Shown one piece after another: positions 3,725-43,259 of a stretch of DNA of 64,000 bases (the first letter of the stretch is position 1; every line of letters begins with the position of its first letter). The notes beneath the pieces are model-generated. The model made no database searches and was not told the DNA's origin. It saw only the letters and a list, made by a program, of their open reading frames with translations. The stretch covers positions 62,001 to 126,000 of the forward strand of contig JACRMR010000017.1 in NCBI GenBank assembly GCA_016214895.1, given 5' to 3'. Made by a program: the position numbers and the translations under genes. Source of the stretch: a candidate division KSB1 bacterium (GTDB lineage Bacteria > Electryoneota > RPQS01).

Positions 3725-3833
3725 CACGCGAACAACCGAAAATGCGAACAAGCGAACATTCAAAAAGAGCGGTGTAGCGCCGCACGGATGGGCGTTCGGT
3801 TTCTACTTGTAACCCAAATCGAGGAGGCCTGCC

Positions 3834-5237: not shown

Positions 5238-5487
5238 CCCGTTGGATTGATACCCCGAGCGCACGCAGTGCGCCGCTACGAAGGTGCGAAGGGATCGTGG
5301 TCTATGCGGGGCGGGCGGGATGGGCGAGCGAACCCCCGAGCGCACGCAGCGGGCCGCTTCGAAGCTCTATTATGCCTTGTGTGATCGTTACCCCCTCGCA
5401 GTGCGGAGATTCTCCGAGCGACAAGCCAACGTGGTTGAACGACCGTAGCGGCGCACTGCGTGCGCTCGGGATACACCGGATCAACCC
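5238..5487. repeat. REP hairpin cluster 5' of the first RAYT gene
   Basis: There are three copies of a hairpin with stem GCGCAC-GCA-GTGCGC followed by CGCTAC (GTAGCG on the other strand): 5253-5283 on one strand, a variant at 5333-5363, and 5443-5470 in the opposite orientation. The first and last copies make an inverted pair, the BIME-like arrangement typical of REP elements mobilised by RAYT proteins. No gene is present. The first copy may also act as a terminator for the T9SS gene upstream. Confidence 0.8.
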
Positions 5488-6042
5488 ATGACGGGTAGCA
5501 TTCCCGATCCGCGATTCAAGTCGGTGCGGTTGAAATACCTGCGGTACTCCGAGCCCGGAGCGTATTTTGTAACGATTGTTACCGCGCGACGCGAGAGCCT
5601 GTTTGGCGTGATCGAAGATGGACAGATGGTTGCCAACGAGGCGGGGCAGATCGTGATTGACGAGTGGCTACGAACCATCGCCATGCGCACACGGCTCACC
5701 ATGGATGCGTTCTGTCTGATGCCCAATCATTTTCATGCCGTGGTCGTGATGGGCGAAGCTGCTCCAAGCGCACGCAGTGCGCCGCTACGAAACGAGCTGT
5801 TGCTTCGGCGGTGGAATGAGCGGGCGCCTGATTCCCTCAGCACGATCATGGCAGGCTTCAAAGCCGCCACGACGAAACGAATCAACGAACTGCGCTGCGC
5901 TCGGGGACAGTCGGTCTGGCAACATCGCTTCCATGAACACGTCGTGCGCGGGGACCGCGACCTCGCGCAAATTCGTGATTACATTCTGGGCAATCCTGCG
6001 CAGTGGTCAGCGGATCATGAGAACCCCGAGCGCCGACCGTAG
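5488..6042 (+). CDS. REP-associated tyrosine transposase (RAYT, IS200-like HUH nuclease)
   Basis: The protein has 184 residues and belongs to the Y1 transposase family. The HUH motif is at residues 78-84 (MPNHFHA) and the likely catalytic Tyr165 lies in IRDYILGNPAQW. Between them is the family block FKAATTKRINELR. Known RAYTs nick and move REP hairpins carrying GTAG, and REP copies lie on both sides of this gene and inside it. Residues 92-102 (APSARSAPLRN) are encoded by an inserted REP copy at 5764-5791, and the TAG stop is the TAG of another REP copy. The nuclease signature residues look intact, so activity is plausible. Confidence 0.9.
   Translation: MTGSIPDPRFKSVRLKYLRYSEPGAYFVTIVTARRESLFGVIEDGQMVANEAGQIVIDEWLRTIAMRTRLTMDAFCLMPNHFHAVVVMGEAAPSARSAPLRNELLLRRWNERAPDSLSTIMAGFKAATTKRINELRCARGQSVWQHRFHEHVVRGDRDLAQIRDYILGNPAQWSADHENPERRP
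5764..5791 (-). repeat. REP copy inside the RAYT reading frame
   Basis: The sequence AAGCGCACGCAGTGCGCC followed by GCTACG is the same hairpin as in the flanking cluster. It has a length that keeps the reading frame open and encodes APSARSAPLR between the HUH motif and the tyrosine helix. The second RAYT gene has its own REP type at the equivalent position. Confidence 0.85.
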
Positions 6043-6064
6043 CGGCGCACTGCGTGCGCCCGGT
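6030..6064 (-). repeat. REP copy that supplies the RAYT stop codon
   Basis: CCGTAGCGGCGCACTGCGTG plus CGC is a full hairpin copy in the reverse orientation relative to 5253. The RAYT frame ends on its TAG (6040-6042), preceded by CCG. Confidence 0.85.
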
Positions 6065-28552: not shown

Positions 28553-28582
28553 ATCACCGAGCGCACGCCGTGCGCCGCTACA
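28553..28582 (+). repeat. Single REP hairpin
   Basis: ACCGAGCGCACGCCGTGCGC followed by CGCTACAG is a copy of the first RAYT's REP type with one change in the loop. It lies ten bases after a stop codon and could also end transcription. Confidence 0.75.
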
Positions 28583-34229: not shown

Positions 34230-34230
34230 A

Positions 34231-34320
34231 GATGAAGCATGATAGATGATAGATGAGGTCGAAGGATAGTACTCATCTGCTTCATCTATTATCTATCATC
34301 GATCATCTTTCTCTTCCATG
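34231..34320. repeat. Inverted heptamer tracts forming a stem before a start codon
   Basis: Units GATGAAG, CATGATA, GATGATA, GATGAGG at 34232-34259 are complementary to CTTCATC, TATTATC, TATCATC, GATCATC at 34281-34308. The second tract is followed by TTTCTCTTCC and the ATG at 34318. This is the same design as at 33818-33905, with a different heptamer. Confidence 0.75.
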
Positions 34321-35983: not shown

Positions 35984-37339
35984 ATGAAAAGTGCTATCGT
36001 AATTTTGCTCGCCCTGCTTTTGTCCATGTTCTCTCGTCCCGCGAATGCGTGGATCAATATCTCGCTCTGCGAAATCGACGAAGCGCTGCACTGCCCGTGC
36101 GGAACCGAAGGACCGCTGATCGGTCATACGACGGCCTACGTCATGCAGGATGTGAACCTCAACGGCCCGGATGCACTGGACGACACCTATGCCGCCGTCG
36201 AGTACTGCCAATACATCGCGGAAGGCTGCTCCTGCGCGTGGCTGCCGTTCGGGCCGGTCCCCGACGGACCCCTGATGTTCTACGTCCGCGTCGCGGGCTC
36301 CGATAGCTGCTGCTGGATTTCCGACGAGTTCCCGCTGGCCAACGGATATAACCACATCGAGCTGTCCGGTTGGGAATGTGTCCCGGCGCGTTGTTTCGCG
36401 CGGCCGTTCAACACCATGGCCGCCTGGTTCACCGACTGTATGCAAAGCGTCGGCTGCCCCTGCGACTATCCGCTGCAACTGCCGCTTGGCACACCGATCT
36501 GCCTCTGGCATGATCTCGACAGTAACGAGGTCAGTGATGCCGACACCGTAGTCGCGTGCTTCGAGTTCGGCGCGGGCGCGGGACGGCCGCCGTGGAATTG
36601 CCAATGGACACCCGCGCCGGACCGCATGCTATCGCCGGGATACTATTATCTGCTGATCAACTCCGGCGCCTGCTGCTGGGTGGCGGGATCGTATTTGTCG
36701 AGCAACGGCGGCGGCACCATGGCCGTGACTCCGGGGGCGTGGCAGTGCTACGATATCCCGTGCGCGCAAGCCCAGCCGCCCGCGTCGCCGTCGTCCGTCA
36801 CCGTGGATTGCGATACCGTGTTGGTGGCCATCCGCTTTGTTCATGACGGGTACGATGTGAGCGGTTATCACGCCTACCGCAACGGGGAGTTCTTTGCCAG
36901 CTTCCCCAGTCCGGCCATGTTTCCCTTCTATGACTGGCAGTCCGTGCCTGGAGTGGTCAACACCTATTGCGTGAGCGCGTACAACCACTTCGGCGAATCG
37001 GCTCTGACCTGTGCGCCGCCCTGTACCGTGCAGTTTGAGCCGCCGTCTCCCAACGTGATTGCCAGGCCCATGCCCGCTATGATTCCCGAATGCGTGATCG
37101 CGCCCAACCCGTTTAACCCGGAGACCGCGATCACGCTGACGCTGCCCATGGAGATGACCGCAACGCTGGCGATCTACGACGTGCAAGGCCGCCTCGTCAC
37201 CATCCTCGCCGATGGCGCGCTGTCCGCCGGCCAGCACCGCTTCAGCTTCAACGGCGCGCACCTCCCCAGCGGCCTCTACTTCGCGCGGCTGCAAACGCCC
37301 GAGTCGCTAACTACGCACAAATTGCTGTTGCTGAAGTAG
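35984..37339 (+). CDS. T9SS-sorted cysteine-rich secreted protein
   Basis: The ATG at 35984 opens the signal peptide MKSAIVILLALLLSMFSRPA; a GGGAG lies ahead of it. It has 451 residues. Two Cys-rich modules repeat (CPCGTEGPLIGHTTAYVM ... SDSCCWISDEFPL ... WECVPARCF; then GCPCDYPLQLPLGTPICL ... SGACCWVAGSYLS ... WQCYDIPC), suggesting disulfide-stabilised surface domains. A fibronectin-III-like domain follows and then a sorting tail (IAPNPFNPETAITLTL, IYDVQGRLVTILADG, HLPSGLYFARLQT, KLLLLK). Its TAG stop is the first TAG of a REP hairpin. Confidence 0.85.
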   Translation: MKSAIVILLALLLSMFSRPANAWINISLCEIDEALHCPCGTEGPLIGHTTAYVMQDVNLNGPDALDDTYAAVEYCQYIAEGCSCAWLPFGPVPDGPLMFYVRVAGSDSCCWISDEFPLANGYNHIELSGWECVPARCFARPFNTMAAWFTDCMQSVGCPCDYPLQLPLGTPICLWHDLDSNEVSDADTVVACFEFGAGAGRPPWNCQWTPAPDRMLSPGYYYLLINSGACCWVAGSYLSSNGGGTMAVTPGAWQCYDIPCAQAQPPASPSSVTVDCDTVLVAIRFVHDGYDVSGYHAYRNGEFFASFPSPAMFPFYDWQSVPGVVNTYCVSAYNHFGESALTCAPPCTVQFEPPSPNVIARPMPAMIPECVIAPNPFNPETAITLTLPMEMTATLAIYDVQGRLVTILADGALSAGQHRFSFNGAHLPSGLYFARLQTPESLTTHKLLLLK

Positions 37340-37366
37340 CGCCGCACAGCCGTGCGCGATCTGCTC
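37336..37366 (+). repeat. REP hairpin of the second type overlapping a stop codon
   Basis: GTAGCGCCGCACAGCCGTGC followed by GCGATCTGC begins at the stop codon of the T9SS cargo gene and ends about 10 bases before the RAYT start. It is identical in the core to the units of the tandem array at 37933. Confidence 0.85.
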
Positions 37367-37377
37367 GCGGAACACCG

Positions 37378-37938
37378 ATGAACGACACAAGCCAACCTAA
37401 ACGCTACAACGGTACGGTGCGCTTGCCGTATCTGCACTACAGCGAGGCAGGCGGCTACGCCATCACCGTGGTTTCACACGACCGCACGCCGTTGTTTGGC
37501 CGGATCGAGGACGGGCAGATGATCGCAAGTGAATATGGCTTGGTCGTCTTGCGTGAATGGATGAAATCGCCCGTGTTGAGACCGGGACTCATGCTGGATG
37601 TGTTCTGTCTTATGCCGAATCATCTTCACGGGATCGTCATTTTGATGGAGTCAGAGCAGATCGCGCACGGCACCGAGCAGATCGCGCACGGCTGTGCGGC
37701 GCTACCGCGTGGGCCTCGTGATCGGGCCAAACGCTCGATTAGTTCCATGATCGCGGGATTCAAAGCTGCGACGACCAAGCGCATCAACGAATTGCGCGGC
37801 ACACCGGGACAACCGGTCTGGCAGCCCAAATTCTACGAGCATGTCATCCGCAACGGCGCCGATCTGCTGCGCCAGCAAGAGTACATTACAAACAACCCGC
37901 TCCAGTGGGAGCTTGACGACGAGCACCCCCACCCGTAG
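37378..37938 (+). CDS. REP-associated tyrosine transposase (RAYT), second copy
   Basis: The 186-residue protein has the HUH motif at residues 79-85 (MPNHLHG) and likely catalytic Tyr169 in RQQEYITNNPLQW, with FKAATTKRINELR identical to the first RAYT. Residues 92-112 (SEQIAHGTEQIAHGCAALPR) are encoded by an inserted REP of the second type. The stop codon is the TAG of the first unit of the downstream array. The two RAYTs share about half their residues and are each linked to their own REP subtype, so they are probably separate REPtrons. Confidence 0.9.
   Translation: MNDTSQPKRYNGTVRLPYLHYSEAGGYAITVVSHDRTPLFGRIEDGQMIASEYGLVVLREWMKSPVLRPGLMLDVFCLMPNHLHGIVILMESEQIAHGTEQIAHGCAALPRGPRDRAKRSISSMIAGFKAATTKRINELRGTPGQPVWQPKFYEHVIRNGADLLRQQEYITNNPLQWELDDEHPHP
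37655..37711 (-). repeat. REP copies inside the second RAYT reading frame
   Basis: On the minus strand this reads GTAGCGCCGCACAGCCGTGC, GCGATCTGCTC and then a partial second copy. It sits at the same place in the protein (after the HUH strand) as the REP insert of the first RAYT gene and in the same orientation. Confidence 0.85.
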
Positions 37939-38220
37939 CGCCGCACAGCCGTGCGCGATCTGCCGTGAAGCATACCGTAACCGTAGCGCCGCACAGCCGT
38001 GCGCGATCTGCCGTGAAGCATACCGTAACCGTAGCGCCGCACAGCCGTGCGCGATCTGCCGGAAAGCATACCGTAACCGTAGCGCCGCACAGCCGTGCGC
38101 GATCCGCCGTGAAGCATACCGTAACCGTAGCGCCGCACAGCCGTGCGCGATCTGCCGTGAAGCATACCGTAACCGTAGCGCCGCACAGCCGTGCGCGATC
38201 CGCCGTGAAGTATCCCGTTT
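37933..38220 (+). repeat. Tandem array of six 48-bp REP units
   Basis: Six units begin at 37933, 37981, 38029, 38077, 38125 and 38173, exactly 48 bases apart. Each is CCGTAGCGCCGCACAGCCGT, then GCGCGATCTGCCG and TGAAGCATACCGTAA. Variation between units is one or two bases (TCTGCC or TCCGCC; TGAAGC or GGAAGC). Spacers are the same in all units, so this is not a CRISPR array. Confidence 0.95.
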
Positions 38221-38326
38221 CCCGTAGCGCCGCTTGGATATACGCTCGGGTAACGCGCGGGATGCCATCAATGCCGGTGGCCAACTACAATCACACCGTA
38301 GCGCCGCATGGACATGCGCTCGGATT
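38221..38326 (+). repeat. Variant REP copies beyond the array
   Basis: Two more copies keep CCGTAGCGCCGC but have different stems: TTGGATATACGCTCGG at 38234 and ATGGACATGCGCTCGG at 38309. The second has a perfect CATG/CATG stem, showing that the stem sequence can change while GTAGCGCCGC is kept. Confidence 0.75.
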
Positions 38327-42015: not shown

Positions 42016-43017
42016 ATGCTCAGTAAACAAGCCCGCGAGGCGAAGTACGAAGCGGCGATGTCCAGCGCGCGTGATCATCTGCATTACGAGCGCTTCGGGC
42101 AGGCGATCAAAGCGCTGCAAGAGGCGGCGCGGTTATGCGCGGACCGCGTCGAGCCGCTGTACATGCTGGGCACGATGTATGGCGATCAAGAACGCTGGGC
42201 GGCGACGGTTGAGGTGCTGAAGAAAGCCGTCAGGATTGAGCCCGAGCACTTCGGAGCGTGGACCGCGTTGGGCATCGCCTGCCATCAGACTGGTGATCTC
42301 GAGCGCGCCGAAAAGGCCTTTGTCCGCGCCACGGAATTGCAGCCCGACCGCGTCGAGACATGGTACGCCTACGGCGAAGTGTTAATGGACCTCGATGAAG
42401 TCGTCAGCGCGGCGGACGCATTTCAGAAAGCCGCCGATCTCGCGCCCGACGACGATGAATTGCAGATGAGGGCCGGGAGCGCGCAACTCGAGGCCTTCGA
42501 CGCGGAAGCCGCCCGTCACTGCTTCGAGCGGATCTTGAGCCGACGCCCGCACCACGAAAGCGCCGCTTTCGTGTATGCGCTCTCCTACCTGCGCTCCTTG
42601 CCGCCGGACCCCAATGAGGCCGTGCGCAGGTTCGACGAGCTGCTCGGGAAGTTCCCGCATTCCTATGACATGTTCCTGAATGTCGGACGCGGATTTCTCG
42701 AAGCCAATGATCTTGACCGCGCGCGAACTACATTCGAGCAGGCACGCAAGCTGACCGCCGCACCCGCCGATGCCGAGCTCGGACTTGCCCGCATTGCGAT
42801 GCGGAACGAGGACGAGCAAACTTGGACTGCGCATGTCCGCGCGGCTTACCGTCTGAATCCGACCAACTCCGAGGCCATCTACCTCATGGCCATTCTCCAC
42901 AGACAGGAAGGTCGCCAGCCGGAATCCGACGAGCTCCTGCGAGAACTTACCCGACGAGACCCTGACTACGCGATGGAGGCCGCGCAGTCTTTGCTCGACA
43001 GCGGTCTCGTGAAGTAG
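42016..43017 (+). CDS. TPR-repeat protein
   Basis: The 333-residue protein has GGAGGCGATGATCC before the ATG. At least six tetratricopeptide repeats are visible, for example AIKALQEAARLCADRVEPLY, ATVEVLKKAVRIEPEHFGAW, AEKAFVRATELQPDRVETWY and AADAFQKAADLAPDDDELQM. No signal peptide or catalytic domain is present, so a protein-protein scaffold role in the cytosol is likely. The stop overlaps a short upstream leader of the next small gene. Confidence 0.88.
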   Translation: MLSKQAREAKYEAAMSSARDHLHYERFGQAIKALQEAARLCADRVEPLYMLGTMYGDQERWAATVEVLKKAVRIEPEHFGAWTALGIACHQTGDLERAEKAFVRATELQPDRVETWYAYGEVLMDLDEVVSAADAFQKAADLAPDDDELQMRAGSAQLEAFDAEAARHCFERILSRRPHHESAAFVYALSYLRSLPPDPNEAVRRFDELLGKFPHSYDMFLNVGRGFLEANDLDRARTTFEQARKLTAAPADAELGLARIAMRNEDEQTWTAHVRAAYRLNPTNSEAIYLMAILHRQEGRQPESDELLRELTRRDPDYAMEAAQSLLDSGLVK

Positions 43018-43076: not shown

Positions 43077-43259
43077 ATGAAACGCTTCGACATCAGCAAC
43101 CCCGTCTGGAAGCTCGAAACCATCGGCTGGATTGTCTTCGCCATCCTCGCCGTGTTTCTCGTGATCGTCCTCGCGCAGGTGCCGCATTCCACCCTTTGGA
43201 TCATCCTCGGTGCGACAGTCGCCATCACCGCCCGGCTGTTCGTCGGACGAAGGATGTAG
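43077..43259 (+). CDS. Small two-helix membrane protein, 60 aa
   Basis: From ATG 43077 (MKRFDISNPVWKLETIGWIV) the protein has two hydrophobic segments, about residues 14-33 and 38-54, and a basic end (RLFVGRRM). GGAGT lies before the ATG. The stop is TAG in GATGTAGCGCCGC, which is the conserved start of the REP hairpins in this window. Family not recognised. Confidence 0.55.
   Translation: MKRFDISNPVWKLETIGWIVFAILAVFLVIVLAQVPHSTLWIILGATVAITARLFVGRRM

Follow-up and report, generated by a model that had tools for sequence, protein, structure and literature searches.

The window analysed here, a stretch of 64,000 nucleotides from a candidate division KSB1 bacterium (positions 62001-126000 of contig C17 in genome G000, an assembly of 3.21 Mb in 26 contigs), raises the question of whether REP elements provide stop codons for the genes they adjoin and, if so, whether those genes are cut short in the process. 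The initial annotation pointed to the foot of the REP hairpins, GTAGCG(C/G)CGC, which contains TAG, and the repetition of this foot is readily confirmed, with 17 occurrences in the window compared to 0.55 expected. The reading that we favor, with a probability of roughly 0.77, is that the window harbors two REPtrons, RAYT genes together with cognate GTAG hairpins, in which the TAG of a REP that is flush and in phase with the reading frame is the stop codon.

REPs were called with a covariance model built from the genome's own REPs, which produced 19 matches within the window and 60 genome-wide at E<=1; with the addition of a diverged copy from the window (38224-38249, plus strand, 21.3 bits), the total is 61. 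These elements have the features of a GTAG REP family, namely GTAG followed by a palindrome and repetition in the genome, and in 31 of the 61 copies GTAG is directly preceded by CC. Described REPs typically exceed 100 copies according to the accessible literature, and compared with the GTAG REP families covered by the accessible text of PMC3733652, the copy number here is low. Single hairpins show a modest folding advantage over shuffled sequences (z of -1.0, -1.8, and -0.6). The bare 10-mer of the foot was rejected as evidence of a REP given that it occurs 75 times genome-wide compared to 164 times for the same pattern read backward. Family F1 (GTAGCGGCGCACTGCGTGCGCTCGG) goes with RAYT1 and family F2 (GTAGCGCCGCACAGCCGTGCGCGATCT) with RAYT2. 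Two intergenic REPs, 3774-3799 on the plus strand and 28557-28581 on the minus strand, lie off any stop. AT-rich intergenic repeats similar to ATGATAGATGA are present at 34230-34308 and ahead of several REPs.

The two RAYT genes are laid out alike, in that one REP closely precedes the start codon, another lies inverted within the coding sequence, and the TAG of a third is the stop. RAYT1 (5488-6042, plus strand, 184 aa), a REP-associated tyrosine (HUH/Y1) transposase, has its left F1 REP at 5445-5469 (plus strand), 18 nt 5' of the start codon, an inverted F1 REP in frame at 5764-5788 (minus strand) and a terminal F1 REP at 6039-6063 (plus strand), of which the TAG at 6040-6042 is the stop; one more F1 REP is located at 5255-5279 (minus strand, 38.8 bits). 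In the case of RAYT2 (37378-37938, plus strand, 186 aa), the left F2 REP occupies 37336-37361 (plus strand), the inverted F2 REP at 37680-37705 (minus strand) is translated in frame as AHGCAALP, and the terminal F2 REP at 37935-37960 (plus strand) contributes the stop at 37936-37938. The segment 37674-37705 within RAYT2 is 100% complementary to 37336-37367, and a second, partial inverted copy (37651-37671, minus strand) is recognizable from the pairs I14-I16 and from the translation, in which EQIAHG is repeated; the other single REPs given here were all matched by the covariance model. Directly 3' of RAYT2 is a tandem array of 6.2 copies of a 48-bp unit consisting of a REP and a spacer (37933-38233, plus strand), with one F2 REP per unit and the terminal REP at the start of the first unit; a REP of family F3 is found at 38298-38323 (plus strand, 41.7 bits). 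Thus, the CCG-TAG stops within REPs that the initial annotation assigned to both RAYT genes are borne out by the sequence and by the covariance model, and the inverted REP inside each gene is a feature that it did not mention.

Both RAYT proteins match the NF047646 model with scores under the curated cut-off of 80 bits (RAYT1, 74.9 bits, E 5.7e-21; RAYT2, 63.4 bits, E 2.1e-17), and against PF01797 (cut-off 23 bits) RAYT1 scores over the cut-off with 27.6 bits and RAYT2 under it with 15.5 bits; that RAYT2 falls short of both cut-offs counts against the favored reading. H82, H84, and Y169 are invariant among 20 aligned RAYTs; when 40 are aligned, the two histidines remain invariant and Y169 is present in at least 90%, and this residue is, judging from its position, the probable catalytic tyrosine. 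The predicted model of RAYT2 (mean pLDDT 85.7) shows a Y1 transposase fold, and its top match in a fold search is PDB 4ER8, the E. coli RAYT bound to a REP hairpin (E 1.2e-7, 21% identity), followed by the ISDra2 and IS608 transposases; 4ER8 is also the sole match of RAYT2 in a PDB profile search. In contrast to 4ER8, the HUH motif of RAYT2 is followed by a loop that a REP encodes, and residues 100-107 in this loop have pLDDT below 50 in an otherwise confident model. The two genes share GTAG-tagged hairpins on their flanks and a frame-preserving REP between HuH and Y, and the distance between these motifs in RAYT2 is 85 residues compared with 88, the median that Quentin et al. (2018, PMC6006769) give for TnpA-REP subclass 2.4. 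As far as the accessible part of that paper goes, genes of subclass 2.4 contain frame-preserving REPs, located between HuH and Y as they are here, and similarly combine a long HuH-Y distance with the lack of a C-terminal core extension. Two REPtrons of this subclass fit these observations.

Apart from the RAYT genes, a gene in the window whose stop lies in a REP codes for a secreted protein with a T9SS sorting tail (Por_Secre_tail; 35984-37339, plus strand), which ends on AAG-TAG in the left REP of RAYT2, exactly as originally proposed. Two other stops attributed to REPs at that time, those of the DinB gene (35303, TAGCGCTCATGG) and of the ORF 43077-43259 (TAGCGCCGCTTTTCG), have to be discarded: both are outside the 19 matches in the window, and there is no hairpin, the folding of the two feet compared with shuffles yielding z of +0.84 and +0.88. 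Also rejected were the gene 42016-43017 (GTAGTGCCGCTG), where folding is no better than that of shuffles, and a TPR gene at locus L023 that ends in GTAGCGCCGC and has no match to the REP model.

Across the genome, with genes called by a simple finder based on codon usage and trained on 27 genes, a called stop is the TAG of a REP in 4 of the 61 REPs, the respective genes being RAYT1, RAYT2, the T9SS gene, and murQ, whereas REPs are found inside a gene in 2 of 61 cases, both within RAYTs. Under uniform placement in the gap, the 36 REPs that have a same-strand gene upstream are expected to yield 0.18 exact overlaps compared to the 4 observed (Poisson P ~3e-5), so that the genome-wide count proposed in the initial annotation comes out above chance. 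After the two RAYT genes are set aside, two overlaps remain, one of which is the left end of RAYT2's own element. The notion that REPs supply stop codons holds in that the overlap exceeds uniform placement, but few genes are involved, and most of the effect falls on the RAYT genes themselves. The Pro-stop (CCG-TAG) ends of RAYT1, RAYT2, and murQ follow from the frequent CC before GTAG. A longer repeat that also contains GTAG and begins with GTAGCGCCGCACGGGCTTGTTGCCGAA is present in 8 genomic copies (L276-L283), of which two end genes, one for an aminotransferase and the other of the glutamate-cysteine ligase family.

The register of the stop with the terminal REP can be assessed in a broader sample of RAYTs, assembled from loci of relatives and from named genomes that were scanned (with the best 80 of 562 retained). 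As the queries themselves carried REPs, the sample is enriched in genes of this kind. The 156 loci gave 149 usable RAYT ORFs after the exclusion of L032 (no match), L112, L135, L156, and L192 (too short), and L166 and L173 (duplicates); L193 and L243 were retained despite a stop within the match. A cognate REP on both sides, defined as a 22-mer match of at least 17, is present in 50 of the 149 (this cut-off and that of 16/22 for the inner copies described below were set after the null had been seen). TAG is the stop in 32 of these 50 genes compared to 19 of the other 99 (P 1.2e-7); the contrast with other long ORFs in the same 50 loci, where TAG stops number 36 of 88, is weaker (P 0.013). A REP in the same orientation lies within -25 to +60 of the stop in 38 of the 50, at an offset of exactly 0 in 22 cases, 5-58 in 15, and negative in 1; one zero-offset match (L147) was left out of the count because its stop is TGA. 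Frames simply running into a REP are expected to read through two-thirds of the time, compared with the single negative offset actually seen (P 5e-10). The register is common rather than universal, considering that 12 of the 50 genes have no counted same-orientation REP in this interval and 15 of the 38 stop ahead of the REP. RAYT genes in this REP-enriched sample thus tend to end exactly on their own terminal REP. Under looser criteria, 62 RAYTs are REP-associated, of which 36 end within a REP foot and 42 contain an inner copy. On the tree, the 36 genes with the stop-in-REP trait imply a minimum of 29 changes of this trait, so it appears to be gained or lost often and strong selection is not needed to account for it; this trait and the inner copy are both scattered, with 29 changes each, and the direction of change cannot be inferred from a tree with many unsupported forks.

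With regard to the inner REP, the coding sequence contains a match of at least 16/22 to the cognate REP in 33 of the 50 flanked genes compared to 48 of 596 swapped pairs. Among the 42 genes with an inner copy in the looser set, this copy is inverted in 25 and direct in 17, and in 41 it starts 12-35 residues past the start of the M-P-N-H-x-H motif; the outlier, L240, has it at 55 residues. The inner copy and the flanking REPs of the same gene agree at a mean of 20.5 and a median of 21 of the 22 positions (selection imposes a floor of 16), and the own locus is the best or tied-best match of the inner copy in 36 of the 42 genes. Between RAYTs with 45-60% protein identity, flanking copies agree with one another at 14.7/22 and inner copies at 14.6/22. 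A tentative and, in our judgment, somewhat doubtful extension is that the three cognate REPs of each RAYT gene (leader, inner, and stop) form a locked unit, being kept alike by mutual copying and switching family as one; genomic REPs would then be made from the stop copy and the expressed inner copy as master templates, and GTAG would be at once the guide of the enzyme and the stop codon. In five genomes of the family (G001, G004, G005, G007, and G009; loci L266, L267, L268, L269, and L270), a RAYT is located just upstream of genes in the order mnmG-rsmG-murQ, the first of which we take to be mnmG-like from its sequence. The REP families of these RAYTs differ, and other genomes have no RAYT at that place. 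They were considered as same-site orthologs that would prove concerted change and were rejected in this role; the tree does not unite them, so independent arrivals at mnmG are possible.

The preferred explanation starts from the RAYT enzyme, which, by analogy with known RAYTs, would read GTAG at the foot of the hairpin as a guide; GTAG would be kept for this purpose, and every intact REP would, under this proposal, carry TAG. Where a REP directly abuts the end of a reading frame in the matching phase, this TAG is the stop, often following the proline codon CCG because CC commonly precedes GTAG. At ordinary genes, a REP stop would be less frequent and would reflect the settling of a REP or an entire REPtron on a stop without loss of protein domains. 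Probably, the REP came after the gene, and selection for a compact end may maintain the register. The simplest alternative, that a repeat containing TAG and located 3' of genes occasionally hits a stop by chance, could appeal to the overlap being limited to 4 of the 61 REPs and to the chance nature of the two weaker cases (35303 and 43259), but it is hardly credible given the excess of observed over expected overlaps and the 22 of 38 RAYT offsets that are exactly zero. Slightly less improbable, although still very unlikely, is the possibility raised in the initial annotation that REP insertion cuts genes short and creates new, earlier ends. The final codon is indeed replaced by the REP end in the CCG-TAG cases, and murQ ends in ...TKP where its homologs differ, but comparison of the C-termini reveals no shortening. 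The T9SS tail has 28 homologs whose stop is readable, and every one of them terminates at the residue where the gene in the window does (23 aligned to the last residue and 5 by equal unaligned length; one further homolog, which runs off its locus, is not counted), and 19 murQ homologs end at the equivalents of residues 360-366, that is, at most 3 residues from the own end at 363. Together with the UppP and QueF family models, where the match stops no more than 3 and 2 positions short of the model ends, these comparisons indicate that the proteins retain native or almost native ends. A Pfam domain is detected in 9 of 10 neighboring ORFs of RAYT loci that end on a REP, T9SS tail, Mrr, BacA, CstA, and SLT proteins being among them. 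In the murQ of this genome (L162:2193-3281), the alignments with the homologs break around residues 204-238, apparently owing to an extra stretch.

A more serious competitor, although in our estimate still an unlikely one, is that GTAG is part of the target, so that insertion takes place 3' of a GTAG already present and, an NNG-TAG stop being harmless, the surviving elements sit on stops. The T9SS gene fits this scenario: the tail natively ends in ...K-stop, the stop is TAG in 15 of the 28 homologs, with GTAG at this place in 6, and the AAG-TAG in the window lacks the CC usual before GTAG, so this stop may predate the REP. Furthermore, of the 88 long ORFs that accompany the RAYT genes at the 50 REP-flanked loci, 10 end on the foot of the cognate REP. 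However, in known RAYTs, GTAG is in the guide position and cleavage occurs at CT, as reported in the accessible text of PMC8266576; CC often accompanies GTAG; and GTAG is found at the stop of only 1 of the 19 murQ homologs.

The main parts of this picture are already published. The accessible text of Di Nocera et al. (2013, PMC3733652) describes GTAG REP families and REPtrons that, similarly to those analyzed here, consist of a short palindrome with GTAG at its foot adjoining a RAYT gene, states that GTAG REP termini often give a TAG stop (termed opal there) to flanking ORFs, and marks REPs overlapping the 3' ends of RAYT genes; unlike the present analysis, this text neither sets the number of exact-register stops against chance expectation nor compares inner with flanking copies. 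The frequent location of REPs immediately downstream of the rayt stop (PMC2817692) and REP classes that switch at orthologous RAYTs (PMC3686654) are likewise on record in the accessible parts of these articles. The frame-preserving REPs of subclass 2.4 are known from PMC6006769, the accessible text of which, in contrast, does not mention a stop inside the terminal REP or inner and flanking copies changing together. Among the titles and abstracts covered by a literature search, none concerned such joint change. The present analysis contributes the precise register together with a count of it, as well as the correspondence between inner and flanking copies.

Altogether, the feature is real and partly known: in a subclass 2.4 REPtron, the tag of the terminal hairpin, which by analogy probably acts as a guide, doubles as the stop codon of the transposase. 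This separates a rule, the tendency of RAYTs in the sample to stop on their own terminal REP, from the loose impression conveyed by any gene that ends in TAGCGC, and the host proteins are left whole by these elements. The matching between inner and flanking copies makes REP renewal testable, in that one can ask whether a change of REP family leads a RAYT to rewrite the gene that encodes it.
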